Both the position numbers and the translations under genes were made by a program. 64,000 nucleotides of DNA from Halobacteriovorax sp. GTDB lineage: Bacteria > Bdellovibrionota > Bacteriovoracia > Bacteriovoracales > Bacteriovoracaceae. Position 1 is the stretch's first letter, and every line of letters starts with the position of its first letter. The DNA is taken from assembly GCA_002720865.1 (NCBI GenBank), contig PBIO01000013.1, positions 1-64,000 of the forward strand, written 5' to 3'. Positions 2,839 to 42,286 of this stretch are shown in pieces. The notes under the pieces are model-generated. The model was not told where the DNA came from. It did no database searches and was given only the letters and a program-made list of their open reading frames with translations.

Positions 2839-4101
2839 TTACTCTTGAGGTTGTGGGGCCTGACCACCAAACATACCCTGTACAGCATTTGAGAACATCT
2901 GCTGCATCGAGACGAATGTGTCATGCCTTAATTGCACTTCATAAACTGCCTGATCTCTTTCTTCTATTTTCTCTTGCCTTTCTGCTTCTTTGCTCTCTAA
3001 CTCCGCTTTCTTGATATTTATGTCGGATAGCGAGATCGCGATTTCTTGCTCAAGTACAGTCTTTAAATCATTAAAGATTTGATGATTTGGCGCAATCGTA
3101 AGAAAATGATAATCGTCAGTTATACTATCAGGATCAATAACAGTATCTGGTTCAATTTGGGCCCAGGAAACTCCATCAGGTAACAAACCAGGTGTATGCT
3201 TATCTGCAATTCCAGTCAGGCCAATGAATTGAATACCATCTCCAAGAATAAGATTCATGATTTGTGATATCTTATTAACTAAGGAGTTAGAAACAACTGA
3301 TTTTTCATGCTGCTTTTCCTGACGCTGATCCTGGAGGGTATTCAACTGAGCGGTGTTTTCGACAATTTGGTGTATATAATTGCTACGAGCATTTTCAATA
3401 TCGCCGAGTACGGTCTGCGGTATCGAGGCCTCCTGGCCGTCCCAAGCGGGATTAAAGACTTGATAAGCCTCGAGGAAACGACTCCGAATTTCTGCATCAT
3501 CTGAATTAATATAGGCTTTATAATGGCCCATAAGAACCTCAACTGAACGATGGCCATCGTTAGCAATCTCAATGTTGGCCGTGGCGGAATTAATTAAACC
3601 AATTATACTGACTATATCTGCTTGCAATGAAGACCAAAGTTCGAAATCGGTTGTATATTCTTGCTGGATAGATGCTACTTCGTTTAACATCTGCGTTGTT
3701 GATCTAAGATCTCCCTTAAGTTCAATCTCCACCCGGCGTTCTTGAGCTTGGATCAATGCAGAAAGCTCTGTGCAGATCTGAACGAGCGTCCGGAGTTCCG
3801 TTTCCGTAGTATTACGTTGGGAAACTGCCTCTGACCATGCTTCCCTGACTGCCTCAACTTCTTCAATAAGGCCAATTATCATAGGCTCATATGGCTCAAT
3901 CGCATGAAGAGTTTCGATTCTTTCCTCAAGTTGTATTATCTTTACTTGAAGTCCTGAAATTACTTCAGCGTAATCAGACAGCGGTTTACCATCAACGTAG
4001 ATTCTCTCTGCGTGAACCTCTGACCATTGTTTGTCAATTTTCCCAAGTGCACCGCCGTTGTGTACCCGAGGAACGAAATTTAATTTATTATCTTCTGGCA
4101 T
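2839..4101 (-). CDS. Coiled-coil tail fibre protein
   Basis: 420 residues. The N-terminal 50 contain GGALGKIDKQWSEVHAERI followed by YVDGKPL. This is the LGxxxxxWxxVHAxxIxVDGxxL pattern seen in many phage fibre and appendage proteins, where it leads into a trimeric shaft. Most of the rest is predicted helical and charged: coiled-coil-like heptads around residues 50-150, and again around 360-400 with many Glu and Lys. The C-terminus is Gln/Pro-rich (GGQAPQPQE). A ribosome site AGGAG precedes the ATG. It probably forms a fibre shaft or connector. No receptor-binding domain is recognised. Confidence 0.6.
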   Translation of the reverse strand: MPEDNKLNFVPRVHNGGALGKIDKQWSEVHAERIYVDGKPLSDYAEVISGLQVKIIQLEERIETLHAIEPYEPMIIGLIEEVEAVREAWSEAVSQRNTTETELRTLVQICTELSALIQAQERRVEIELKGDLRSTTQMLNEVASIQQEYTTDFELWSSLQADIVSIIGLINSATANIEIANDGHRSVEVLMGHYKAYINSDDAEIRSRFLEAYQVFNPAWDGQEASIPQTVLGDIENARSNYIHQIVENTAQLNTLQDQRQEKQHEKSVVSNSLVNKISQIMNLILGDGIQFIGLTGIADKHTPGLLPDGVSWAQIEPDTVIDPDSITDDYHFLTIAPNHQIFNDLKTVLEQEIAISLSDINIKKAELESKEAERQEKIEERDQAVYEVQLRHDTFVSMQQMFSNAVQGMFGGQAPQPQE

Positions 4102-27733: not shown

Positions 27734-30700
27734 TTAGCGTGTATCGGCCGTAACATTCGACATACTGGTTGCGCTGCCCCTATCTGTTGAAGCTATAGCG
27801 TTGCGATCGGCAACGTTTAACCTTGTTACCCTAAACGCAGGATCCTGTTGCGTAGCAAGGCCTGTAGATATATCTTTCGCGTCCATGGTAAGATTTAATA
27901 CAACGTTGACATTAATGGGAGAATGACGTATACGTACTGTTTGTTCATCTAATCTTAGATTCCTTCCGAATCTATCAAGGTTTGCAGACAAACGTACCGG
28001 TGACGTATTTTGCAGGCTTTCAGAAATTACATTATAATCAGTAATCATTTGTGTAATAGCCCTGATCGTTGTGCCACTTACCCTTGTATCTAGACTATCT
28101 TTTGCAGTCTCGATAAATTCTGCGTACTTTTCAGTAAAACTAGCTAGCCTTGATACTGCTGAGCGACTACGGCCCATACCTCTACTGTGTTGTGCAATTC
28201 CGGAGGTGGCTATTACTTCAATTAGCTTTGGTATTGTATTAGGGTTTGATCCTGATGCAGGTGAAAATACCTGAATCATTGTGCCTACAAGGCTTCTAAT
28301 AACTGCAGCTGATGAAGAATCTGTTTCACCCTTCAGGCCTTTTAGTTTTTCTAATGTATCACCAAACTTAACGACGGCTTCCATCGCCATTCCAACAATC
28401 TTCATTTTGTATATAACGCGGCGGGGATTCTGGATGGATTCTGCAGCCTCTGTAACTGAGCTTATTAAACGAGGCAAATGACTACGCACTGCCCAAACGA
28501 TATCAGATATTGTTGATGTCATTGTAGATATGCGCCTGGAAAAACTAGCATCAGGCATTTCATCTTCTGATGGCATTAAACCGTATAGTTTCTTTATTGT
28601 GGTACCAAACTTGACAACCATATCCATTGCCATACCGACAATCTTCATCTTAGGCTCCATTGCTGCCGGATCGGTTATAGATTCAGCAGCTTGTACTACC
28701 GCGGTGACTAAGCTTCTCATATTAGTTCTCATTGCACTTGAAACTACACTCATAACTGTAGAGAATCGACTCATCATCTCAGAGATTGGGGGTGGATCAT
28801 CTAAGAATCCTGTCTCACCGGCCATATCCTGCGCAATCTTAAACATTGTCTTCATGGTCTTACCAACCTTTGAAACAACTTCGATAGCCATGCCGACAAT
28901 CTTCATCTTAGGCTCCATTTCAGCAGGATTTGTAATTGAATCGGCCGCTGCTTTAACATGGCGTACCATCTCTGGAATATATGATGATACGGCGCGCATA
29001 ATTGTACGAATAAAGTCGGCCATGGCCCTTATAACCTCTGGTGCATTTCCGGAAGCCGTTGTCGTTGAACTTGAAGAAGAAGAAAAGATTCCTGAGGATG
29101 ATCTTTTTGTTACTTTCTTAATTGCATCAAAAAATGAATCTGGAGGCATCATAGATTGAACCATAGTTCCAATAGCACCCATCAATTTTCCTACTGATGC
29201 AGCTTTGGCCATATCATCTTCTGAGAAGTCTTTGACTATTTCAATAATTGATGTAATAAGTGTACTAACACCGGATATTAAACCGTTTATCATTCCGGAT
29301 GCTGCATCAATTACAGCACCAGCTGCGCTAGCATCACTAAACTTAGATACATCAACATTGACTAGCTGTACAGCAACGTTGGCTAGCGTTCCTATGATTT
29401 CAAATGCTGCACCTAAAGCTTCCATCTTCGAAGATAGACTAGCTGGATCATTTATCTCTATTGCTGATAACGCACCAACTGCTGGGGCAAACTCGCCGGC
29501 TATCTTATCACCGAAATCCCCGATCTTATTAAATCCTTTCATAAGGATTTTGCCGATAAACGGAAGTGTAAATGGTAATAACGCAATTGATAAAAGTGCT
29601 GCCTTACCAATCACACCAAAAAATTCACCTAATACTTTCGTCTGCTCTGATAGGGCGGGGGTTAAAACACCTCTGGTTGCAGAACTAAACTCTCCAAGCT
29701 TTGTTAAAAACCCACCTTCTTTTGTTAGAGCACCCACAAATGCAACAACACCTGGAATCATTTTTGAACCGATGTATCCGCCAACCCCCGCTAAAACAGC
29801 AGCTAGGCCGGCTATACCGACATTTGCAAATATACTCCCAAGATAGGCAAACATTTTATTTGTTTTCCCCCATTTTACAGACTTGCCGGCATCATATACA
29901 GCTTTTATCTTACCTATAGTGTCTGGTAGGCCTAACAACATGGGTGCCATCAAGACTAGCCCTAGGACACCGATCAATGCGCCGGCTCCGCCGACAATTG
30001 CTGCTAAGCCGGCTGAACCAAGATCATAAAATAAATCTCCCATGGATCCAAAAACTTTCGCAGTCTTCTTCCAGTCAATATTCATCCCTTGAATCATTCC
30101 TACAACATTGTTTAGAAACTCTAATACGGGAGGAAGAGCTAATAAGAAATATACCATAAGGCCGAGGCCAACTGCACCAACTATAGCTGATAAGCCTCCG
30201 AGTGCGGCCGCGGACGCAGCTATGGCTAATGACCCAAACATTGAAGCTACCCGGACAAATGTTTTTGCAGTCTTCTTCCAGTCAATATTCATTGAAGATA
30301 GTTGGGTGCCGACAGCGCCGATTGCATCAACAATACTTGGCATTGCAGCAAGAAAAAGTGCACCGGCAACTACACCCGCAATTGCAATTGGAAATTGGGG
30401 AAGCATTAACCCTATTAATGTTACTGCACCGACCAGCGCTGCCAATGCTATAGCACCGATAGCAACAGCACCAAGGCCCATTGCAACTGCTTTAGGATCT
30501 GATATTTGTTTTGCTTGTTCGCCTACGGCAATTAATGCATGAATAAAGCCTCGCGCAGCAGCATATAGTAAGACTGGTGCCAATAAAATACCAGCTGTGG
30601 CTAATAGCATAGCTGGGCCGGTTGCACCCAAGGCAGCGCCGACCGCAATAAGGCCGAGTAACGCTAGAGCAGCCATGCCTAACGCGGCCATACCCCAGAC

Positions 30701-33385
30701 AACCTTTATTGGATCCAGCATTGCCATTGATGCAGAAACAGCCAATAATGCTAGGGCAAAGGCGACCCCACCGACTGTCAACAATGCGGCGCCGGCTAGC
30801 ATACCAACTAATGAAGCAACCATTAGCTCTTTAGTTGCACCAAGACCAGCGGTAACCGCAATCATCAATGCTAAAGCACCAGATGCCATGGCTAACCCTA
30901 AGAAACCCATTACTAATTGCATAGGTGGAACTAATGATATTATTTTTGCAACTGCGACCATTGCCAATGAGAATAATATCATTGATGTTCCCATTACTAC
31001 AGCTAATGCTGCCATAGCAAGGCCGGCTTTTATAATTGTGCCTGGTTTTAGATTGGCAATACGTTCAAAAAATCCCTTAATACCTTCTGCCAAAGCGCCG
31101 AAGCCGCTCTTTAAAGCTTTTCCCAAACTGCCTGCCTGTGTTCCGCTTCCTACCTGTGATGCAGCCGATGATGTTGCAGATCCAAAAAACCCAGCAATTA
31201 CACTGCCAACTTTTGCAGCAACAGCGCCTTTAACAGCTGAAAGTGTTGCAACTAACAACATCTTTCCTATTACAACACTAGCATATGCTGCACCGATTTT
31301 AACAATTGGGCCTTTGTACTTTGTCCAGATCGTCATTAAAAGATTCTTAACAGCATCGACTAAAACTGGAACTGCTTCCTGAATTGCTGCCCATGAAGCT
31401 ATGAACGCGTTCTTTAGGGCTTCCCCCATAGATCCCATAGCTGGAGATCCAGGGTTTGCTATAAAATCTGCTATCTTATTAATGACACTTGTTAAACCCT
31501 GAATTACCATTGGAATAGCTGCCATGAACATAATAGCTAATGTTCCAAAAAATTTCTTTGCACCATCTAAGAACATAGAGCCGGCGCCACCATTGGATGC
31601 AAAGAAATCAGAAAAATTTTGTTTTAATCCGTCCAGCAACGTCCCTATGCCTGCCTGGGGATCTGTCTTTAGTCTATCACAAAAATCCCTAAATGTCCGT
31701 ATTACACCTTGCATTAGGTCATGGAACTTTACGGGATCAAACATGTCCCGCAAAGCTTTCACCATATCTATTACACCCGGAAACCTTGTTATAAACAAGT
31801 TCCCTAATGCCATGGCACCGTGAAAAACTACTCTCAGAGAAGCGCGCAGATTCTGGAGCAGCTCCCTAAATTCTTTTGTATACATGACCCCACGCATGAA
31901 GCCTTTTATTAACGCATCAAAGAATCCTGTAAATTGATGACCCAATTCTACTGCACGTTCAATAGACTTTGACAATGTCTTCATTGCCTCAGCTTGGCTC
32001 ATGGGGCCTTTCTCAGCTTTCTTACTTTCTTTTAAGACATCATCATACCCCAGATTCTGGTTTGATAATGCCAACTTCGTTGCATTTTCATCAAGGCCCA
32101 TCTGGCTAGATAATAACTTAAGTTCTTGCCGGCTAAGATCCTCAACACTTTTCCCTGTCTGGAAAAATGCATTACGTAACATTTCCATACGCTTCGCCGG
32201 ATCTTGTTCTTGCATCATCTTCATAGCATCAACATTCATGCCAAATGCCTGTGACAACATTGATGCAGACTTTGCAGCATCCTCAAAGTTGTCAAACTTA
32301 TCGATTAACCCAGTTAACGCCTTGACTTCAATCCCTAGCTTGTGTGCATAAACTGAAACTTGTGCTAGTTGTTTGGGAGCCATTTGGCCGAAGTGACCAA
32401 CATCGGCAGCCATTTGTGCCATGTCTTGTGCAATTTCTTTGCCTGCTATACCGAAAGCGTCACCCATTTGTAGGGAGTAATTTGATACTTCTTGTAATGT
32501 CTCTTTTAATGACCTACCGGTTGTCCTCGCAAGATTAGCAAGGGCACCAGTCTGTTCTCCAGATATCCCTAATCCCTTAGTAAATGCAACAAACTCTGGA
32601 CCCATTGCAGCAATTTCACTTTTAAAATGATGAAATGCAGGACCCATTCCATGAGCTTGCTCACCAAGATAAGCTAAAGCCTTTGCTGCTCCCTCTGGGC
32701 CGAACCCAAACATTTTGGACATTGATAGGCCAGTACCTGCAACATTGCCAGCCTCAGACTTAAGTGATTTGAAACTACCAATTACAGCCTTACCGGGACC
32801 ACTAGACAGATCTCCGAATTGCTTTCTTACATTTTCATACTCTTGACGTAAAGCTAGTCCAGCCTGAGCTGCATCATTGGCCATTTGAGTCAGGCCACCA
32901 AGTAATCTAAATGGTGCCTTTATAATTGCAGTACCGACACCGGCAATGCCACTAGTTAGGCTACCTATAAATTTAAGTGTAGATCTAATTTGGGCGCCGG
33001 CGCCACGGAATGCATCAACAAGTCCGACGCCTAGTCCGACTGCACCAACCCGGGCGGGTGTAAAAGCTTTTGTTAGCTTTTGTAATGCGGTTTGGCTTTG
33101 CTGTATTTTCTTATTAGATTTTGTTGTAGAATCGCCAAGCGATGTTTGGGCAGTTGCCATATCAGACGCTGCATCGGCCGCGGCTGCCATGCCCTTACGA
33201 ATACCCTCAATGCGCTCTTCCATGCCATCAAGATCTTGACAGTCGAGTGCTGAACAAAGTTCTTTGGCTAGCTTAGCTTGCCCAGTAACATATGCTTCCT
33301 GCTGCTTTAGCATAGAGGAACGCTTAGCAAGAACTGAATTAATTTCTTGTTGTATTTTTAACTGTGCGCCAAGATCATCAGCCAT
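27734..33385 (-). CDS. Tape measure protein
   Basis: 1883 residues, the longest gene. A charged coiled-coil N-terminus (about 1-110) leads into a long Ala/Gly-rich region with many hydrophobic helices (about 600-1250), as in tape measure proteins that span the tail lumen and later contact the host membrane. Internal repeats are visible: MNIDWKKTAK occurs twice and a related KWGKTNKMF once (about 1030-1200); a KMKIVGMA unit occurs three times (about 1500-1740), spaced by roughly 90 residues. At about 0.15 nm per residue the tail would be near 280 nm. It follows the tube, chaperone and an 84-residue gene, the usual order. Confidence 0.88.
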   Translation of the reverse strand: MADDLGAQLKIQQEINSVLAKRSSMLKQQEAYVTGQAKLAKELCSALDCQDLDGMEERIEGIRKGMAAAADAASDMATAQTSLGDSTTKSNKKIQQSQTALQKLTKAFTPARVGAVGLGVGLVDAFRGAGAQIRSTLKFIGSLTSGIAGVGTAIIKAPFRLLGGLTQMANDAAQAGLALRQEYENVRKQFGDLSSGPGKAVIGSFKSLKSEAGNVAGTGLSMSKMFGFGPEGAAKALAYLGEQAHGMGPAFHHFKSEIAAMGPEFVAFTKGLGISGEQTGALANLARTTGRSLKETLQEVSNYSLQMGDAFGIAGKEIAQDMAQMAADVGHFGQMAPKQLAQVSVYAHKLGIEVKALTGLIDKFDNFEDAAKSASMLSQAFGMNVDAMKMMQEQDPAKRMEMLRNAFFQTGKSVEDLSRQELKLLSSQMGLDENATKLALSNQNLGYDDVLKESKKAEKGPMSQAEAMKTLSKSIERAVELGHQFTGFFDALIKGFMRGVMYTKEFRELLQNLRASLRVVFHGAMALGNLFITRFPGVIDMVKALRDMFDPVKFHDLMQGVIRTFRDFCDRLKTDPQAGIGTLLDGLKQNFSDFFASNGGAGSMFLDGAKKFFGTLAIMFMAAIPMVIQGLTSVINKIADFIANPGSPAMGSMGEALKNAFIASWAAIQEAVPVLVDAVKNLLMTIWTKYKGPIVKIGAAYASVVIGKMLLVATLSAVKGAVAAKVGSVIAGFFGSATSSAASQVGSGTQAGSLGKALKSGFGALAEGIKGFFERIANLKPGTIIKAGLAMAALAVVMGTSMILFSLAMVAVAKIISLVPPMQLVMGFLGLAMASGALALMIAVTAGLGATKELMVASLVGMLAGAALLTVGGVAFALALLAVSASMAMLDPIKVVWGMAALGMAALALLGLIAVGAALGATGPAMLLATAGILLAPVLLYAAARGFIHALIAVGEQAKQISDPKAVAMGLGAVAIGAIALAALVGAVTLIGLMLPQFPIAIAGVVAGALFLAAMPSIVDAIGAVGTQLSSMNIDWKKTAKTFVRVASMFGSLAIAASAAALGGLSAIVGAVGLGLMVYFLLALPPVLEFLNNVVGMIQGMNIDWKKTAKVFGSMGDLFYDLGSAGLAAIVGGAGALIGVLGLVLMAPMLLGLPDTIGKIKAVYDAGKSVKWGKTNKMFAYLGSIFANVGIAGLAAVLAGVGGYIGSKMIPGVVAFVGALTKEGGFLTKLGEFSSATRGVLTPALSEQTKVLGEFFGVIGKAALLSIALLPFTLPFIGKILMKGFNKIGDFGDKIAGEFAPAVGALSAIEINDPASLSSKMEALGAAFEIIGTLANVAVQLVNVDVSKFSDASAAGAVIDAASGMINGLISGVSTLITSIIEIVKDFSEDDMAKAASVGKLMGAIGTMVQSMMPPDSFFDAIKKVTKRSSSGIFSSSSSSTTTASGNAPEVIRAMADFIRTIMRAVSSYIPEMVRHVKAAADSITNPAEMEPKMKIVGMAIEVVSKVGKTMKTMFKIAQDMAGETGFLDDPPPISEMMSRFSTVMSVVSSAMRTNMRSLVTAVVQAAESITDPAAMEPKMKIVGMAMDMVVKFGTTIKKLYGLMPSEDEMPDASFSRRISTMTSTISDIVWAVRSHLPRLISSVTEAAESIQNPRRVIYKMKIVGMAMEAVVKFGDTLEKLKGLKGETDSSSAAVIRSLVGTMIQVFSPASGSNPNTIPKLIEVIATSGIAQHSRGMGRSRSAVSRLASFTEKYAEFIETAKDSLDTRVSGTTIRAITQMITDYNVISESLQNTSPVRLSANLDRFGRNLRLDEQTVRIRHSPINVNVVLNLTMDAKDISTGLATQQDPAFRVTRLNVADRNAIASTDRGSATSMSNVTADTR

Positions 33386-33455: not shown

Positions 33456-33710
33456 TTATAGCAACCAGGGTGTACCTACTACTTCTAGAAATTGCCTAGA
33501 GGCAACCCTCTTTTTATCTAGTAGCTCAACGACCCTTTCCATACTAGCGGTTGAACTAGTTAATTCTTCGTATAGATTTTTAGATGTTGTAATTACATTT
33601 TGGCAGGTTTTTATTTTTTCCGGACTACCACTTAAACGTACATTGGTCTCTTTGCCCAATATATACGCTGCAGCTGCTGCCTGAAACCGTTTCATATTAT
33701 TTGTGGCCAT
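33456..33710 (-). CDS. Small hypothetical tail-assembly region protein
   Basis: 84 residues, helical, no recognised domain. It has a clear GGGAG ribosome site. It sits between the frameshifted chaperone gene and the tape measure gene, a position that suggests an assembly or tape-measure-binding role. Confidence 0.55.
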   Translation of the reverse strand: MATNNMKRFQAAAAAYILGKETNVRLSGSPEKIKTCQNVITTSKNLYEELTSSTASMERVVELLDKKRVASRQFLEVVGTPWLL

Positions 33711-33747: not shown

Positions 33748-34011
33748 CTAAGTGAAACGCCTTAATCTAGATGGTACTTGTGCACGCTGCCTACCCATCA
33801 GTGACCTAGCATCAGGAGAATTTGCATGTGCTGCCCTAGATGCGCCCTGATTACTTTCATTGGCGCGTTTAATTTCCTTATTAATTCTATCTAAAAACCA
33901 TAGTCTTTCCCAAATAGGAAGCATATATGCCTCTGAATAGGTAAAACCCATGTAATACATTAATAAGAAAATTTGTTCTAAGTATACTTCCTTATCACTC
34001 GGCGTCAGGCC
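33748..34011 (-). CDS. Tail assembly chaperone, downstream (T) part, probably made by frameshift
   Basis: From the slippery T-run at 34012-34018 the downstream frame stays open for 87 residues: GLTPSDKEVYLEQIFLL, then MYYMGFTYSEAYMLPIWERL to the stop. An ATG exists at 33960, but no ribosome site is seen before it, which argues against independent initiation. This frame is reached from the upstream gp26-like gene by a +1 or -2 shift. The gene order (tube, G, GT, tape measure) matches the conserved tail assembly chaperone pair of tailed phages. The fused product would be about 365 residues. Confidence 0.6.
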   Translation of the reverse strand, partial: GLTPSDKEVYLEQIFLLMYYMGFTYSEAYMLPIWERLWFLDRINKEIKRANESNQGASRAAHANSPDARSLMGRQRAQVPSRLRRFT

Positions 34012-34843
34012 AAAAAAACGAAGCGCCCATCGGTAGGCGCACCTCCGATGTCTCCAAGCAGTGGGGACAGTCCATCCAGGATTTCATCTCAATCCCTGGC
34101 TCGCTTTTGTCTATATGGCGGCGGAGGGCTAACGAATCCCTTGCCGGCATATTCCGAATGAATGTATCAATCTTACCTTTGTCAGTAACATTATCAATAG
34201 CAGTGATGGCATGCTTAAGGCGAGTTGTAACCAGGTTCTCACCAGAAAGACCAGATTTCTTTTTTCTTTCTTCCATTACCATGATGTTTGTTTCTGCATG
34301 ACCATCTAGAAAACTAAACCTTACAACCTTCTTTGTAATAGGTAGCGTAAACTCAAATGCGTTTGACCCATCAGCGATGGGATTTGTTTCAAGTCGCTTA
34401 ATTGGTAACTCTGCAAGATTAAATGCCTGCTTGGACCTGGTACTACATGCAGGGCAATCTACTTCAACATTATAATCCGTACCATAACCGGTGATTCGCA
34501 GTGCTGTCATTACTGCATTTCTATCACCAGCTAGCATATCGTCAGGATTAATATCTTTATTGACCATACATGATTTAAGCAAGTGTGAAATAACAGTACC
34601 CTTTTTAATAAGGGCTTTAGAAGTTAAAATATCTTCTTCTCGGGCTGTCATAGCCCTAATTTCGATCGTTTCTTTACCATATAGTGGACTATCAACAGGA
34701 TAACATACACCACGTGATGGAAGGGGCACAGCCTCAACAGGAATCTCAAACCCGAAATCGTCTTTCATTACATTACGAGTCGGCATACCCTGTGCTTGCG
34801 CAGCCTTAAATATTTCATTTTCAGTTCTGGTTTTATCAGACAC
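33995..34843 (-). CDS. gp26-like baseplate/tail assembly protein (PF12322-like)
   Basis: 282 residues. VPLPSRGVCYPVDSPLYGKETIEIRAMTAREEDILTS-type sequence (about 37-75) and the zinc-like CPAC (about 133-136) and CPHC (about 262-265) pairs match the T4 base plate protein family typified by gp26. The last codons contain a T7 run (TTT TTT TGG). A shift there extends the product into the following open frame, so this gene may encode the G part of a G/GT tail assembly chaperone as well as the short form. An ATATTTA element lies 48 bases upstream. Its start follows the tube gene and that gene's terminator. Confidence 0.72.
   Translation of the reverse strand: MSDKTRTENEIFKAAQAQGMPTRNVMKDDFGFEIPVEAVPLPSRGVCYPVDSPLYGKETIEIRAMTAREEDILTSKALIKKGTVISHLLKSCMVNKDINPDDMLAGDRNAVMTALRITGYGTDYNVEVDCPACSTRSKQAFNLAELPIKRLETNPIADGSNAFEFTLPITKKVVRFSFLDGHAETNIMVMEERKKKSGLSGENLVTTRLKHAITAIDNVTDKGKIDTFIRNMPARDSLALRRHIDKSEPGIEMKSWMDCPHCLETSEVRLPMGASFFWPDAE
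34012..34018 (-). promoter_or_regulatory. Candidate programmed frameshift site
   Basis: In gene direction: TCG TTT TTT TGG. A T7 run lets Phe-tRNA re-pair after +1 or -2 slippage with no mismatch, whereas a -1 shift would hit TGA within three codons. A 5-bp GC stem (GCGCC/GGCGC) lies just upstream. Confidence 0.5.
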
Positions 34844-34988: not shown

Positions 34989-35477
34989 TTAGTACTGTAG
35001 TACTGCGTTGTCGAATCGAACAGTTAATGAAATCTCTGTAGGATCTTCTGCACCATAATCCAGGTCACCAAATGCTGCTGAAGTTAGGAAACAACCTTTA
35101 AGGTCCCATAATTCAACAACTGTGCCGACAGGATCAAGCAGCTTAAGCTGACAATCGCGCTTATAAAAATCTGCATAACCAGAGCGGCCTGATACGGATT
35201 CAAAGTGGGTGCGAATCCACTCCATTACTTGCTGTGAACCAGATGGTGCAATTGGATCATGTAGTGTTAAACTAATTGCATCAAACTTTGTTTTACCTGC
35301 AAGGTAACGAGTAGAGTTCATATAAGGAACTTCTTGTTCCGCTGTATTAATAGTTGGTCTAGCAGCAGTCTTCATTAAGAATGCGTCTATTCCCTCGATA
35401 GCAAATACCCACCTAAACTTACGCTTGGGTTCAAACTTGTTAGGTAGCATATCGGTAACTGATAGTGTCTCGGCCAT
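34989..35477 (-). CDS. Tail tube protein (gp19-like)
   Basis: 162 residues, the same length class as T4 gp19 (163). FRWVFAIEGIDAFLMKTAARPTI, then FDAISLTLHDPI and the C-terminal EISLTVRFDNAVL fit the tube fold. It polymerises into the rigid inner tube around the tape measure. It lies after the two sheath genes and is followed by a strong terminator, which fits high separate expression. Confidence 0.85.
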   Translation of the reverse strand: MAETLSVTDMLPNKFEPKRKFRWVFAIEGIDAFLMKTAARPTINTAEQEVPYMNSTRYLAGKTKFDAISLTLHDPIAPSGSQQVMEWIRTHFESVSGRSGYADFYKRDCQLKLLDPVGTVVELWDLKGCFLTSAAFGDLDYGAEDPTEISLTVRFDNAVLQY

Positions 35478-35532: not shown

Positions 35533-38500
35533 TTATACTTCAAATTGTCCTGCATTCTTGACAACAAAGTCAAGTGCGATGAACTCAACAGTCCTCGTCG
35601 GTTGTAAGAAGATCTTACCGCGAACCGTATTATTTTCAACATCCGCTTGAGTAGTTGTTGTGGTATCAATGATTACCTTAAACTTATCCAAGCCTTGCTG
35701 GGCCTGAATTCTTGCCAATATTGGATTTACAGCAGCAGAGAATCTCGCCAATGTAGCTTCACGATTCGGTTCGAATAAAATTCTATTACCGACAGCGCGA
35801 ACTCGCCGGCGGACTTCAATAAGCAACCGACGAACATTAACTCTGTCAAGAGAACTCTTTGCCTTCTGTAACGTTTTCTGGCCCCATACCACAACACCTG
35901 GAGTGTGTGGGAAGGCCGCTAGAGGATTAATATCTGCCTCGTATAGTGTATCAAGGTTTGCTCGACTTAGCTTCACCTGGGCCTCTATGACTGTGTCTAG
36001 GGCACCGCGGGTAAACCCTGCCGGGGCATACCATGGATGAGCAACAGAATCGTTAAGTGCAAAGGCACCTAATACTGCAACTGACGGTGGGCAAACTACT
36101 GCTGAGCCTAAGGCTGGATCGTTTACTACAACATCTGGATAATATACTGCTGCGAATGAAGAGTCAAGATTTCTGCCTAGTAATCTATCAGTCGTATTTG
36201 TAACACTTGGGTTTGTGTTAGTTGAATCAACAATTAGATTATTTTCAGAATCCATTTCTTCTGCATCTGCAATTAGCATTGCGTCGAATCGATTCTCAAC
36301 AACATCAATTGCATAATCTACAATACTTGGATCTCTAAGGCCTGGAATTGCTAACAACTTGATATCTACGTCAGCGGTTTCCTGCATTACATCCAATGCT
36401 TTTCGATATGCAGCAACTGTTGGGCCCTTAGTAGCCCCTTGCTGAGTTGAATCAATCATTTCTCTTACAGCTGCAAGGTTTGACAATTTGCCTTTTTCTC
36501 TATCAAGAATATTGACACCATCAAATCCACCTTGTAGGAAGAAACTGAATTTCATGTATTTCTTCATCGGTAGTGATGTAAAGTCGTCCTGGAAATTTAG
36601 GCGACCTAAGAATCTGGATGTTGTACCACCCTGAGCAAGCGTACCATCTCTACGATATTCTGCCGCGGCCCATTGTTTATTGTCAACATCGCCATCTGAT
36701 TCAAGTAATACTTCAACGTTCTCTAGGGAGAATGCATTATTATTAAATCTATCAGAGTCAAGTACTGTTGTTAACCACTCAGCCCCTAAAGCATCATCAG
36801 GAGTACCAGCATTATCACCAGCGACAACATCTAGATTTACTTCTTGAAAATCTGGAAAGTACTTACCGAATGAAAGAAGAGATTTATCAAATTTGTTATT
36901 CTTATTTTGTTGTAGAACATCATCATTGACCTGGAATTGCACACCCCAACAAAGTGCAGAATTAACTTTTTCCTTAGGTGAAACACCTGTTTTAATATTA
37001 TTTCTCATTGGAATGGGGAGCTGTACGACCTCATTCCAGATTGTAGGCTGTAATATCGATGCTAACGGAGGGCTAATTAATGGTCCATCCCCTACCTCAT
37101 TTGAAGATGTTGCAGCACCAGAAGCCCCAAGTTCTCCGGAAGTGATTAAGTGATCATGGCCTCTAAACCCTACTGGCAGTGCCGTAGCATCAATCGTTCC
37201 ATTATCAACCGTACTATCCATTTCTACCCTAATATATGTAGAGCGGCTTGGGTGCACACCTTCAATTACTAGCTTTTGAGCGCCCTGAGGTTTATCAAAA
37301 TCATAATATGCATACATATCACCAATTACCCTGGCAATGTATCTTTCAGATGATGGATTTAGATCAAGCTTAGCAAACTTCTCAAAAACAACTGGGTCAT
37401 TATCATTATCAGTCATACTCCTGACCAGTACATCAAATGTCCCATACTTAGTTGCTTCAGAATTTGAGGCCTGAACATTATCAATCGTAATCTTAAATTT
37501 GCCAGAACCGGCTGTGCCATCGTCTAATGCGTGTACCTTGAAGAGATTCTTTGGCTTGCCACCGAACATCTGGGATGTAACCCAAGGTGAACGTGCTGTT
37601 CTATATCTATCTTCAAAGTTTTCGTAGTTAGGAACACCTTGGTTCCCTCGGTTATGATCTGCTGAACCTGTTAACAAGAATGCAGCAACCTCTCCGAGGT
37701 TCGGAACCCCTGTACCAGGATCAACACCATGGCCATTATCAACATTTAAGACCTGGCTTCCTGTGACGACTGCATGGGAGGGATGGATATCATAATGTGC
37801 GTATAGATAATGTCCTGCATGTTCTATACAACCAGCATCTTGGTTTAAGATGTTTGGAAAGTAATCTGGGCGTTGCGGGTTTAAAGATGCCGTAATAATA
37901 TTTGGATTATCGGGTGTGTTTGTATGACCGTTTAAGATCATAACGAATTGATCTGCATCGCCTGTTAGGTCAACTGTTCCTAAGTGGTAGCCACCGTCGA
38001 GGGCTGCCCCGAATTCGCCAGTTGCGCCTGCTGCTGGAGCATTATTTGCGCCGGCGACTTCCGAACACGAAAGTGCAAGAACAACACCGGAAGGTGCCAT
38101 TATTACACCTCGGACGATTGGAACTGTAGAGGAGTCTCCTCCTGAAAATCCTGTGAGTGTAATGCCTGGATTTGAGGGTGTATTGACCATGCTAACATTA
38201 CCTGATGCACCTTCAATTGCTTGCTCCAGACTTAGGCTACCTACGCCACCCCCTGGGGAAGTGTCAGTAACAATAATCTTATCACCTGGTGTTCCGGCAT
38301 TGTGGCCGTTTGCGGAGTCTATTGCTATTTTCAATTCCGCAGCAATGGCAGGTTGAAGTCCTGTAGCGTCAACGTATATTTTGGTCGTCATCGCCTCAAC
38401 AAACGTGTCACCAGAGCTAAGTGCGGGCCCCCCCCAGTGTGAACCGTCATCATTGCAGAACTTGTATATCTTCTCCGTACCCTCTGCGTCTGTTATTACT

Positions 38501-39084
38501 AGATCAGTGTGATGAAACACTCCGGCGCCGCCGGTGATGCCGATCGTTCCTGTTGCAGCAGCAGAATCAACAAGACCTGCGCCGCTAAGCAACGTTGAGC
38601 CGTTTGTTTCTGCCATTAAGGCCCCGAGGAAGTATGTTCTACCCTCAGCAGACCCATTACCGATGAATGTACCGGCATGGATATTAGCATTAACCATGCC
38701 ATCCGTTACGCCGGCAACTGTAAGTGGCTGTACTTGTTCGCTACCAACGATAAAGCCAGCATTATTTACTCGTCCTGAGTTATTGGCATCTGTTAAGTCT
38801 CGGCGTAGGCCATCACCTGTGCCGAGGACGCGTACATAAGTTCCTGATCTGGATCGTCTCATCCACTCGTGCATAGCTATCGGGCCGAACTTCTTACCGT
38901 CGGTCGGTCCAAACTCTGCAACGAAATCTTGATATGTAGCGACTGTTACTGGGACAAAAGCAGGTCCCTTTAGTGCAGTACCAATAACGCCTGCAGGGAC
39001 TCCCTGTGGCTGTACAGCCGAGGGTCCACTAAGGTCAATTTCTTTGGTTGATACACCAGCGCTCTTAAAGGTCAATTCAGCCAT
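35533..39084 (-). CDS. Tail sheath protein 1 (gp18-like, enlarged)
   Basis: 1183 residues against about 659 for T4 gp18. The N-terminus (VPAGVIGTALKGPAFVPVTV, FGPIAMHEW) and the C-terminal core (WYAPAGFTRGAL, INPLAAFP, VVVWGQKTL, LDRVNVRRLLIEVRRRVR, RILFEPN) are classic contractile-sheath features. The extra length is Gly/Ala-rich insertions (about 120-480) that probably form surface domains. It is paralogous to the next gene, with near-identical terminal motifs. An AGGAG ribosome site precedes the ATG. Confidence 0.9.
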   Translation of the reverse strand: MAELTFKSAGVSTKEIDLSGPSAVQPQGVPAGVIGTALKGPAFVPVTVATYQDFVAEFGPTDGKKFGPIAMHEWMRRSRSGTYVRVLGTGDGLRRDLTDANNSGRVNNAGFIVGSEQVQPLTVAGVTDGMVNANIHAGTFIGNGSAEGRTYFLGALMAETNGSTLLSGAGLVDSAAATGTIGITGGAGVFHHTDLVITDAEGTEKIYKFCNDDGSHWGGPALSSGDTFVEAMTTKIYVDATGLQPAIAAELKIAIDSANGHNAGTPGDKIIVTDTSPGGGVGSLSLEQAIEGASGNVSMVNTPSNPGITLTGFSGGDSSTVPIVRGVIMAPSGVVLALSCSEVAGANNAPAAGATGEFGAALDGGYHLGTVDLTGDADQFVMILNGHTNTPDNPNIITASLNPQRPDYFPNILNQDAGCIEHAGHYLYAHYDIHPSHAVVTGSQVLNVDNGHGVDPGTGVPNLGEVAAFLLTGSADHNRGNQGVPNYENFEDRYRTARSPWVTSQMFGGKPKNLFKVHALDDGTAGSGKFKITIDNVQASNSEATKYGTFDVLVRSMTDNDNDPVVFEKFAKLDLNPSSERYIARVIGDMYAYYDFDKPQGAQKLVIEGVHPSRSTYIRVEMDSTVDNGTIDATALPVGFRGHDHLITSGELGASGAATSSNEVGDGPLISPPLASILQPTIWNEVVQLPIPMRNNIKTGVSPKEKVNSALCWGVQFQVNDDVLQQNKNNKFDKSLLSFGKYFPDFQEVNLDVVAGDNAGTPDDALGAEWLTTVLDSDRFNNNAFSLENVEVLLESDGDVDNKQWAAAEYRRDGTLAQGGTTSRFLGRLNFQDDFTSLPMKKYMKFSFFLQGGFDGVNILDREKGKLSNLAAVREMIDSTQQGATKGPTVAAYRKALDVMQETADVDIKLLAIPGLRDPSIVDYAIDVVENRFDAMLIADAEEMDSENNLIVDSTNTNPSVTNTTDRLLGRNLDSSFAAVYYPDVVVNDPALGSAVVCPPSVAVLGAFALNDSVAHPWYAPAGFTRGALDTVIEAQVKLSRANLDTLYEADINPLAAFPHTPGVVVWGQKTLQKAKSSLDRVNVRRLLIEVRRRVRAVGNRILFEPNREATLARFSAAVNPILARIQAQQGLDKFKVIIDTTTTTQADVENNTVRGKIFLQPTRTVEFIALDFVVKNAGQFEV

Positions 39085-39133: not shown

Positions 39134-42100
39134 TCATGCGAATATTACACCGCTATTCGTAATAATAAAATCGATTGCGATAAACTCGATTGCTCTCGTT
39201 GGTACCACAACAATCCTACCATTTAGTCTGTTATTTTCGTAATCTTCCTGAGAATTATTAGTGTCATCCATTATGACCTGGAACTTCTCAATACCAGCTT
39301 GTGCTTGTACCAGTGCTAATAATGGAGTAACAGAACCAATAAATCTTGCCCGAGTTTGTGGTGTATTAGGCTCGAATAAGATTCTGTTGGCAACACCAAC
39401 AATTTGTCTCTTAACCTCAAGCAACATTCTTCTTACGTTAACCCTGTCCAACGCCGATTTGTTCATTTGGAGAGTTTTCTGTCCAAAGATTACAAATCCA
39501 CCAGATGGGAATACTGCAATTGGGTTAATTCTTGCATCATATAAAGTATCTCTATCACCAGCAGACAATCGTGTTGTTACGTTTGAAACAAATGATAAGG
39601 CACCTCTATTAAAACCAGCTGGAGCAAACCATGGATAAGATACTTTGTCATTGTATCCTAAGGCAGCCAAAGCAGCAACAGATGCAGGAACTCTAACCTT
39701 GAGATTGTTCATAGGATCATCAATATATACATCTGGGAAATACGTTGCGCTGTAGTTGTTATCTACCGCACGAGATTCAAACTCCTCAGAAGTATTTCTT
39801 ACATCAGGCTTAAGCTCATCATGGACTAAAGATCCAACGAACATCCTTGTTCCGTCCTCTGCAACATTTGGAATGTCCATCACATACATAGCTTTGGAAT
39901 ATTCCTTTGTTCTATCAGCTGCAAAGTCTGTAACAAATGAATCCCTAATTCCTGGGATTGCCAAGAGGTTTGTATTCACTGTTAATGGATCAGTCATCTG
40001 GCGGACAGCAACGTTGTATGAATTTACAATGTTATTATCTCTACCTTCACCAGTAATCAATGTACCTCCAAGACCATCATCCTCAAATCCCTCTGCGGCC
40101 AGACCGTCAAGATCACTAGAACTTGCACGATCTGTCATTAGCGCATTGTCTTTATCAAGGATGTTAAGCCCATCGAATCCACCGTAGAATGGTAATGTGA
40201 ATTTCGCATAAGGTGTGAAACGGTTAAACTTAATAGCATCATTATGAACAAGCGATGCTAGTGTAACTCTATCACCAGCCCCTGGATCGTTAACAGTATA
40301 TGTTGCAGCATCCGGAACACCATTTCTAATATATGCCGTTTCTAGCATATGAGTCTTTGCTGTTCCATCAACATCAGCAATTGCTGTTTCATTAAGGGCA
40401 ACCCTGGCCAGGGTGAACTTATTGTTGTTGAATGTGTCAGCACCTGAACCTGTTACCAGTGTATCTAGTTTTGCAATACCCATAAATTTTGTGTATGCAG
40501 AAACTAACGGATTAGGTGTTGAAGAAAGATTTGCATTTAGAATTGCACGATCCATTGACCCTGTGGTTGGAAGTCTTTCAAACTTAACACCCCAGTATAG
40601 TCTAGAGTCGGCGCGTTCATCATTGCCTGATTGGCCTATATGTGTAACGGTTCCACCTTCACAAGAGCTCATAACATGCCCTCTAGTGCATTTGAACCTC
40701 AGTGGTAATGGTGGTACAATGGCATTTTGTAAATCACCTGTTGCACCTACACCTGCAAGGCGTGTATCTTGACCAGCTGGACCAAGTGTATCTGGACCAA
40801 GTGTCAATGCTAGAGCATTTTCATGTGTTAATGAATCAGCGGTCTTAATTGTCGGGATCCCCAAGAAACCGAATGGCATTATATCTTCTGGAAGACATGC
40901 ATCACCTGTGTCTACTGACTCATGTACAATGACCCTAATATGGTGAGACCGATTAGGATATTTTCCGCTAACAACCAATCTACGTTCATCAATTTGATCA
41001 GCGTCAAAATCATACAGGACTTTATAATCACCAATTAATCGGCCGATGTACCTATCACTCTGTGGATCTAGGTTACAATCTGGATATGCTTCAATGATCT
41101 CTCTTGTCATGTCAGTATCGCCAAAGCGCCTGACCTGAACTTCGAATGAACATGTCTTATTATTCGGATCTGTTGAGGCTCGAAGATTTGCAATAGAAAT
41201 CTTTATCTTATCATTAGCATATGCACCATCTGTTAGTGTTTCAAATCTGAATAATGGGTACTCTGTCCCACCATATGGCTGTGATACAATCCATGGTGTG
41301 GTAGGTGTAGTATAACGTGTGTCATACCTACCGTATAATTGTCTAAACGTTTCATCAGCAGTAAGTGGGCAATCCGCGGAGGTTGCTCCGGAGCCAGATA
41401 ATATTGCAACAGCCTTTGTAGCTTCAGTTACAACTCTTGCTAGCTCATCCTCAACTGCAAAATCTGCATAGAGATAATGTTCTAATGTTTGGAATTTATT
41501 AGGGTCCCTGTTAAGAATTTTTCCGACATATGTACTGGCAGATGGGTCCAGTGAGGCTGTCATAATTTTGATACCAGCCAGGCCGTCATCTTCTGCAAAC
41601 GTCTTTCCTGTTGAGGAAGAAATTATTAGCTTGAATGTCTTGTGGTCACCAGGGTTAAGGCCTGCGCAGTCATCCATACTTGACAAGTTTGAACCTGCTA
41701 GGTCTTCATCACCATTAGCAATCATGACGCGTGACCCGGAAGGGGTCATAATAACTGCCCTAACAAGATTTACCTCATCACCGGCTCCAGCAAGTCCTGC
41801 GAAACTATCATTATCACTAAATGCTGGATAACCTTCCATCTCACCACAAGAACTAGAAACCTGATGTCTTGCTACTAAGAATTGTGTTACGCCAGAATGT
41901 CGCCCTTGGGTTTCCGATGGATCCCAGTTAATTGCTCCAGTACCACCAAGAACAAATCCTGCGTTCTTTACGGTACCAAGCCTTTTTGTATTATCAATAT
42001 CAACTAGGGTGTCATTTGCTCCTGCCCCTAGCACTCTCATATATGTCACCGCGGTGCGATTTTTTAAGAATTCACGAACCGCATATGGTCCGAATCTATC

Positions 42101-42286
42101 TGGACTTAAGCCGCCAAATCTTGTTTGGAAATCGGCAAAAGAACCAACGGTTACCGGCACGAAGGCTGGGCCTTTCTCTGCGGTACCAATTATTCCGGCG
42201 GGGGTTCCAACTGGACCCACTTTTCTAGAAGATAGGTCAATTTCCTTCTCAAAAAACCCGGGTGATCGAAATGTCTGCTCAGCCAT
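39134..42286 (-). CDS. Tail sheath protein 2 (gp18-like, enlarged)
   Basis: 1050 residues. It has the same core as its neighbour: GTPAGIIGTAEKGPAFVPVTV, FGPYAVREF, WFAPAGFNRGAL, VIFGQKTLQMNKSALDRVNV and RILFEPNTPQTRARF. The middle insertions differ from those of sheath 1, so the two are diverged paralogues rather than a recent copy. It may form alternate rings or a distinct zone of the sheath, or a sheath-cap role. It starts after a 127-base gap with AAGGAG before the ATG, and sheath 1 follows after 49 bases. Confidence 0.9.
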   Translation of the reverse strand: MAEQTFRSPGFFEKEIDLSSRKVGPVGTPAGIIGTAEKGPAFVPVTVGSFADFQTRFGGLSPDRFGPYAVREFLKNRTAVTYMRVLGAGANDTLVDIDNTKRLGTVKNAGFVLGGTGAINWDPSETQGRHSGVTQFLVARHQVSSSCGEMEGYPAFSDNDSFAGLAGAGDEVNLVRAVIMTPSGSRVMIANGDEDLAGSNLSSMDDCAGLNPGDHKTFKLIISSSTGKTFAEDDGLAGIKIMTASLDPSASTYVGKILNRDPNKFQTLEHYLYADFAVEDELARVVTEATKAVAILSGSGATSADCPLTADETFRQLYGRYDTRYTTPTTPWIVSQPYGGTEYPLFRFETLTDGAYANDKIKISIANLRASTDPNNKTCSFEVQVRRFGDTDMTREIIEAYPDCNLDPQSDRYIGRLIGDYKVLYDFDADQIDERRLVVSGKYPNRSHHIRVIVHESVDTGDACLPEDIMPFGFLGIPTIKTADSLTHENALALTLGPDTLGPAGQDTRLAGVGATGDLQNAIVPPLPLRFKCTRGHVMSSCEGGTVTHIGQSGNDERADSRLYWGVKFERLPTTGSMDRAILNANLSSTPNPLVSAYTKFMGIAKLDTLVTGSGADTFNNNKFTLARVALNETAIADVDGTAKTHMLETAYIRNGVPDAATYTVNDPGAGDRVTLASLVHNDAIKFNRFTPYAKFTLPFYGGFDGLNILDKDNALMTDRASSSDLDGLAAEGFEDDGLGGTLITGEGRDNNIVNSYNVAVRQMTDPLTVNTNLLAIPGIRDSFVTDFAADRTKEYSKAMYVMDIPNVAEDGTRMFVGSLVHDELKPDVRNTSEEFESRAVDNNYSATYFPDVYIDDPMNNLKVRVPASVAALAALGYNDKVSYPWFAPAGFNRGALSFVSNVTTRLSAGDRDTLYDARINPIAVFPSGGFVIFGQKTLQMNKSALDRVNVRRMLLEVKRQIVGVANRILFEPNTPQTRARFIGSVTPLLALVQAQAGIEKFQVIMDDTNNSQEDYENNRLNGRIVVVPTRAIEFIAIDFIITNSGVIFA

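Follow-up and report, generated by a model that had tools for sequence, protein, structure and literature searches.

Organization of the locus

The window, i.e. the complete stretch of 64,000 nucleotides that was analysed, belongs to a contig of 108,871 bases within a genome assembly of 4.9 Mb. According to its annotation, a tail tube gene, a gp26-like gene, an open frame referred to here as the T half and a tape measure gene follow each other on the minus strand (Table 1), so that the two middle elements occupy the position of a G/GT chaperone pair, between tail tube and tape measure. The gp26-like product matches the Pfam family PF12322 (T4_baseplate; E 1.3e-15, 58 bits against a cut-off of 24.5), in agreement with the T4 base plate membership suggested by a first-pass annotation of the sequence, as well as the baseplate hub family PHROG 150. 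It has more than 80 viral relatives, and an identical copy is found on an IMG/VR viral contig that is likewise 108,871 bases long; homologues elsewhere share the layout of the window locus. The frame that follows matches PF20546 (DUF6760) weakly (E 3.2e-5, just under the cut-off; 15 of 17 members match), and translation through a +1 shift would join both halves into a fusion product of 364 aa.

A search of the region against Rfam and one of the PDB by sequence gave no match, and an 84-aa open frame between the T half and the tape measure gene (33456-33710, minus strand) had no convincing match in Pfam or PHROG. Two adjacent, very long minus-strand genes, 35533-39084 (1183 aa) and 39134-42286 (1050 aa), have similar ends; the latter matches tail sheath families and the former looks similar.

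Table 1. Elements of the putative tail assembly chaperone locus in the window
Feature	Position	Strand	Remarks
gp26-like gene, short chaperone form (G / TAC-N)	33995..34843	minus	282 aa, GTG start, TGA stop 33997-33995
T7 run, candidate slip site TTT TTT T	34012..34018	minus	T7 in 94/113 relatives, TTCTTTT in 19
Proposed shift (P-site) codon TTT, re-pairing +1 on TTT	34013..34015	minus	TTT in 113/113
A-site TGG, then CCT	34007..34012	minus	invariant, 113/113
Shine-Dalgarno-like GGAGG, 26 nt before the shift codon	34042..34046	minus	87/105 relatives, same place
18-nt hairpin (7 bp) in the GGAGG-to-slip-site interval, 8 unpaired nt left	34023..34040	minus	fold -11.3 kcal/mol
+1 frame, C-terminal half of the putative long form (T / TAC-C), DUF6760-like	33748..34011	minus	87 codons; PF20546
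Tape measure gene	27734..33385	minus	1883 aa; PHROG 58 tape measure, E 3.2e-6
Tail tube gene, upstream of gp26	34989..35477	minus	PHROG 4542, E 2e-32

Sequence of the junction

On the minus strand, the gp26-like gene ends ATG GGC GCT TCG TTT TTT TGG CCT GAC GCC GAG TGA. The +1 frame starts with GGC directly after the T7 run, at 34011, and has its first ATG at 33960. This gene end and the open frame of 87 codons had been read correctly in the first-pass annotation, and so had the immediate stop after a -1 shift (TTG GCC TGA). The same overlap (34013-34005) can be seen as a two-codon mini-frame at a plausible distance past the hairpin, which is probably just a consequence of the dual coding. The window contains a single copy of TTTTTGGCCTGAC, against 0 expected. 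The tryptic peptide across the junction predicted from the window sequence is LPMGASFFGLTPSDK for a +1 and LPMGASFFFGLTPSDK for a -2 shift.

Two scans of viral contigs yielded 156 loci with both halves, corresponding to 114 distinct junctions, of which 113 could be scored; the sequences are mutually related, and the counts are not independent trials. In 113 of the 114 the second half is in the +1 frame. In the sole exception (L155), the T half follows the gp26 stop in frame 0, which an indel or an assembly error would probably explain. All scorable junctions have TTT as shift codon followed by TGG CCT; elsewhere in the same genes, TTT accounts for 64% of the Phe codons. Immediately before the shift codon stands another Phe codon, reading TTT in 94 junctions and TTC in the other 19. 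An alignment of homologues had been proposed at the outset as a check on the T7 run and the open frame: the downstream frame and TTT TGG CCT are kept, but the complete T7 run is missing from these 19. TTT TTT TGG CCT is also retained in distant relatives from other assemblies (~34-42% identity), on contigs binned with genomes of Flavobacteriales, Alphaproteobacteria, WOR-3 and Woesearchaeota, and in Microcystis phage Mel-JY01. Flavobacterium phage immuto reads TTT CTT TGG, in which CTT T matches the shift codon used by bacterial RF2, and a much more distant relative (L305) has TTT TTT TTC CCT instead. Comparison across the scored junctions shows a +1 frame with the features of coding sequence and a candidate slip site that is invariant.

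Some further loci deserve mention. Five of them (L167, L168, L169, L170 and L171: SP-15, LIS04, GXN1 and the Streptomyces phages LuckySocke and BRock) lack TTTTGG but do place the T half in the +1 frame. In Mel-JY01 (L163, ~3745-3830), an in-frame ATG lies ten codons ahead of the slip site and is itself preceded, at ~8 nt, by GGGGAGGA, which could allow internal initiation and a short T product.

A conserved element upstream of the candidate slip site

Along gp26, synonymous constraint is strongest in the overlap itself, followed by the codons TCG GAG, which together with a neighbouring base spell GGAGG (synonymous identity 0.76 and 0.85 observed, 0.31 and 0.54 expected). Of the 105 non-redundant sequences, 87 have the motif at one and the same spacing, exactly 26 nt ahead of the shift codon. 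The eight-codon interval between motif and slip site folds with a mean of -7.2 kcal/mol, compared with -3.5 for synonymous-codon shuffles, and is more stable than the mean of its own shuffles in 100 of 105 sequences; control windows further upstream had no extra folding stability relative to shuffles. The upstream GC stem pointed out in the first-pass annotation is part of this interval (34040-34023). Its register varies among subclades and its position is kept, most often with 8-10 unpaired nucleotides left. A second clade (~40% identity) combines GGGGAGG, at an identical spacing, with a hairpin of its own, in which one residue varies between Thr, Ala and Ser and the codon always ends in CG. 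Comparison thus shows GGAGG and the hairpin to be conserved beyond what the protein appears to need, as under selection. The hairpin seems not to be essential everywhere, because it is absent in some relatives of the +1 type (Mel-JY01, immuto, L192 and L306). Downstream of the junction, the window sequence has a predicted RNA structure with a z of -2.3.

A similar arrangement is known from initiation: in T4 genes 25 and 38, a hairpin brings a distant Shine-Dalgarno sequence close to the AUG, shortening the spacing from 27 to 11 nt and from 22 to 5 nt, respectively, and the split site of gene 25 is located where T4 gene 26 ends, at the 26-25 junction (PMC3014915). The element in the window resembles these split sites in having a Shine-Dalgarno sequence that is hairpin-bridged and lies at a similar distance (22-27 nt in T4); unlike them, it precedes a shift site and not an initiating AUG. 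Here it would act on the elongating ribosome. We know of no tested precedent for a Shine-Dalgarno sequence acting through a hairpin in this manner. That a Shine-Dalgarno sequence and an intervening hairpin form a new class of stimulator, which drives a +1 slip at TTT_TGG on elongating ribosomes, seems to us about as probable as its opposite.

Entry into the +1 frame and alternative explanations

The evidence of a single sequence for translation upstream of the ATG is weak: by the estimate (61/64)^17, the ~17 codons before it would be open by chance nearly half the time. Among the relatives, however, the stretch from the gp26 stop to the first ATG shows strong purifying selection in the +1 frame, with a pN/pS of 0.28 (92 sequences) close to the 0.25 further downstream, and no other known frame constrains it. 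The least probable of the readings considered, that the T half is an ordinary gene beginning at ATG 33960, could draw on the presence of this ATG at the same codon in 102 of 113 relatives. Against it, eleven or more codons upstream are conserved as protein, the ATG lies in the middle of the first predicted helix of the T-half model, more distant relatives have a residue other than Met at the aligned position, and a ribosome site is missing, as had been surmised from the window alone (mean anti-Shine-Dalgarno energy -3.1 kcal/mol, versus -7.4 at candidate gp26 starts). Protein-level selection before the ATG, the lack of a ribosome site and the position within a helix together argue that translation enters the frame at the overlap, ahead of any start codon; a second frame without a start of its own, joined by a conserved slip site, is also what characterizes a G/GT pair. 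Entry could also be at a non-AUG codon such as CTG 34008, reached across the hairpin by a ribosome bound to GGAGG, which would make the T half a separate protein. The layout is indeed strikingly like that of the split sites in T4 (genes 25 and 38; PMC3014915), and the T half seems to be expressed from its own ATG in a few distant relatives (L185, L190). Yet the CTG is replaced by CTA in several relatives (CCT AAC junctions; Mel-JY01, LR756508), its spacing of ~15 nt remains long even with the hairpin folded, the invariant TTT would be left unexplained, and the related T domain of T4 belongs to a fusion; we regard this reading as very improbable. A strong ribosome site with an independent start, named early on as evidence against a frameshift, was not found inside the clade, in which selection extends upstream of the ATG; separate ATGs are confined to a few more distant relatives.

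Given entry by a ribosomal shift at the overlap, the first-pass annotation left +1 and -2 as possible directions. A lambda-type -1 shift was rejected, the -1 frame being closed within two codons in 111 of 113 junctions; likewise an RF2-type +1 site, with TGG and not a stop codon in the A site and GGAGG 26 nt away and not 3. A -2 shift, as used by phage Mu (reviewed in PMC5009743), would produce the fusion with one extra Phe and is possible without mispairing on the T7 run of the window. The 19 junctions reading TTC TTT TGG decide against such a Mu-type site, because there a -2 slip would place tRNA-Phe on TCT, whereas a +1 slip moves it from TTT to TTT in TTT TTT and TTC TTT junctions alike. 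Moreover, the letters that are invariant are the TTT T needed for +1, and not a run of seven. The -2 reading is therefore very unlikely, and the comparison resolves the direction of the putative shift as +1: the non-standard shift proposed earlier is supported and narrowed. Runs of seven T can also be slippery for polymerases, and slippage beside an upstream hairpin of the nascent RNA, which would have a counterpart here, is known in Roseiflexus (PMC5009743). mRNAs one base shorter, read in the normal way, would then encode the fusion. This is extremely unlikely, as the same 19 relatives have just TTTT at the site with all else intact, and the Shine-Dalgarno-like sequence and the invariant TGG codon suggest the involvement of the ribosome. 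A programmed +1 frameshift, by which a T4-type tail assembly chaperone would be made both short and long, is on this comparative evidence very probably the correct reading.

Probable identity and predicted structure of the two products

The gp26-like protein and the T half were modelled separately. The former (pLDDT 85) matches viral baseplate-hub proteins. After realignment, its top solved structure is the HK97 tail assembly chaperone 2ob9, with a modest Z of 5.5 (below 8) and an rmsd of 3.6 over 82 of 104 residues (29-124 of the gp26 model); the Foldseek E of 2.8 is not significant. The match of this model lends support to a chaperone identity and is no proof of it. The predicted T half is helical (pLDDT 70). 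Because gene order, PF12322 membership, homologues of the same layout and the HK97 match agree, the assignment of the gp26-like protein and the following frame to a T4-type tail assembly chaperone, as its short form and, by way of a putative frameshift, its long form, largely holds, and with it the chaperone pair of the first-pass annotation.

A link to extracellular contractile injection systems was pursued and rejected: a search of plasmids was empty, and Alg6/Afp6 is a plug. A genome scan returned short metagenome-bin contigs, which were taken as phage.

Proposed mechanism

With occurrence and rate of the shift, the action of the stimulator and the roles of the proteins as we infer them, expression of the locus could proceed as follows: Most ribosomes would terminate at the TGA and release the short form of 282 aa. 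In a minority, GGAGG may pair with the 16S rRNA tail while tRNA-Phe occupies TTT in the P site and the A site holds TGG, which is presumably slow to decode (one Trp tRNA). Refolding of the hairpin behind the ribosome would shorten the apparent spacing from 26 to ~8 nt, favouring forward movement; the tRNA may then slip one base onto the overlapping TTT, and GGC would be read next, leading to the long form, whose role in assembly would be to connect the tape measure with the tail tube subunits.

Apparent routes to the two products within the family

More distant members of the family appear to obtain the same two products by other means. In all 65 distinct junctions of the cyanophage-type loci (L223-L302), gp26 ends T_TTT_TTC, in one case T_TTT_TTT, the T half is in the -1 frame and a Shine-Dalgarno sequence precedes the site by exactly 9 nt; single cases of this pattern are phiAS5, PA5oct, Atu_ph07 and LR756511. 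A T-half ATG of its own is apparent in L185, L190 and Pseudomonas phage Cygsa01; the first two have this ATG downstream of the gp26 stop, together with additional N-terminal sequence. In T4, gp26 and its paralogue gp51 are both members of PF12322, and a profile of the -1-type T domains has the gp51 end as its only significant match among 2396 T4 reading frames (E 2e-8). T4 thus seems to possess a short form and a permanent fusion, the T-half homologue of the -1 relatives being fused to gp51. The +1-type T domain reaches gp51 solely through -1-type intermediates (hhalign probability 89% for +1-type versus -1-type, 98% for -1-type versus the gp51 end and 4% for +1-type versus gp51 directly). Cyanophage gp51 has already been described as lacking the first 200 residues.

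The gp51 fusion was dropped as a discovery of this work and is credited to Vladimirov 2022. Vladimirov, Gautam and Davidson (2022) reportedly described the T4 gp26/gp51 chaperone fusion, as attributed to them by PRFect, and are said in citing work to have found polyT -1 signals in T4-like chaperone genes. The T4 part and the T4-type -1 signals hence appear to be published already; what seems new here is the +1 clade with its Shine-Dalgarno-hairpin architecture.

A sizeable group of T4-like phages, most of them uncultured, may make a two-form chaperone by a forward skip at TTT-T, which would add a widespread +1 branch to tail-chaperone frameshifting, a rule with few +1 examples. One protein family seems to have reached the same two products via +1, -1, a separate start and gene duplication, and constitutes a natural test of recoding evolution. 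The compact element of Shine-Dalgarno sequence, hairpin and slip site bears on the question of whether a remote Shine-Dalgarno sequence can be made to act on a moving ribosome by means of a hairpin. A putative role is also given to DUF6760 and to genes annotated as hypothetical.

Comparison with known systems

Like lambda G/GT, the window has overlapping frames upstream of the tape measure gene that would provide a short and a long form by a programmed shift; the lambda shift, unlike the +1 site proposed here, is -1 and occurs at a different heptamer. In most tailed phages, the frameshift in the tail chaperone genes goes backwards. The T4 pair gp26/gp51 likewise comprises a PF12322 short form and a long form with a C-terminal T domain, and both are reportedly needed for tail assembly; in contrast to the separate short and fused long genes of T4, the window contains one gene with a putative +1 shift. 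Cyanophage gp26 and the short gp51 share with the window two adjacent halves, a Phe-rich slip site at the gp26 end and an upstream Shine-Dalgarno sequence, whereas the direction (-1 at T_TTT_TTC versus +1 at TTT_T(GG)) and the spacing (9 nt versus 26 nt with a hairpin) differ. To our knowledge, no phage +1 site combines TTT_TGG with a hairpin-bridged Shine-Dalgarno sequence.

The +1 direction itself is shared with other phage tail genes, those of HSTV-2 (very likely) and of Listeria PSA, A118 and A500 (PMC5009743). The Listeria sites, unlike that of the window, are CCC_UGA or ACA_CCC and are located in coat or tail shaft genes. Outside phages, the candidate site resembles that of bacterial RF2 (prfB) in its putative P-site slip on a U-rich codon aided by a Shine-Dalgarno sequence, which in RF2 lies 3 nt away, with a stop codon in the A site.
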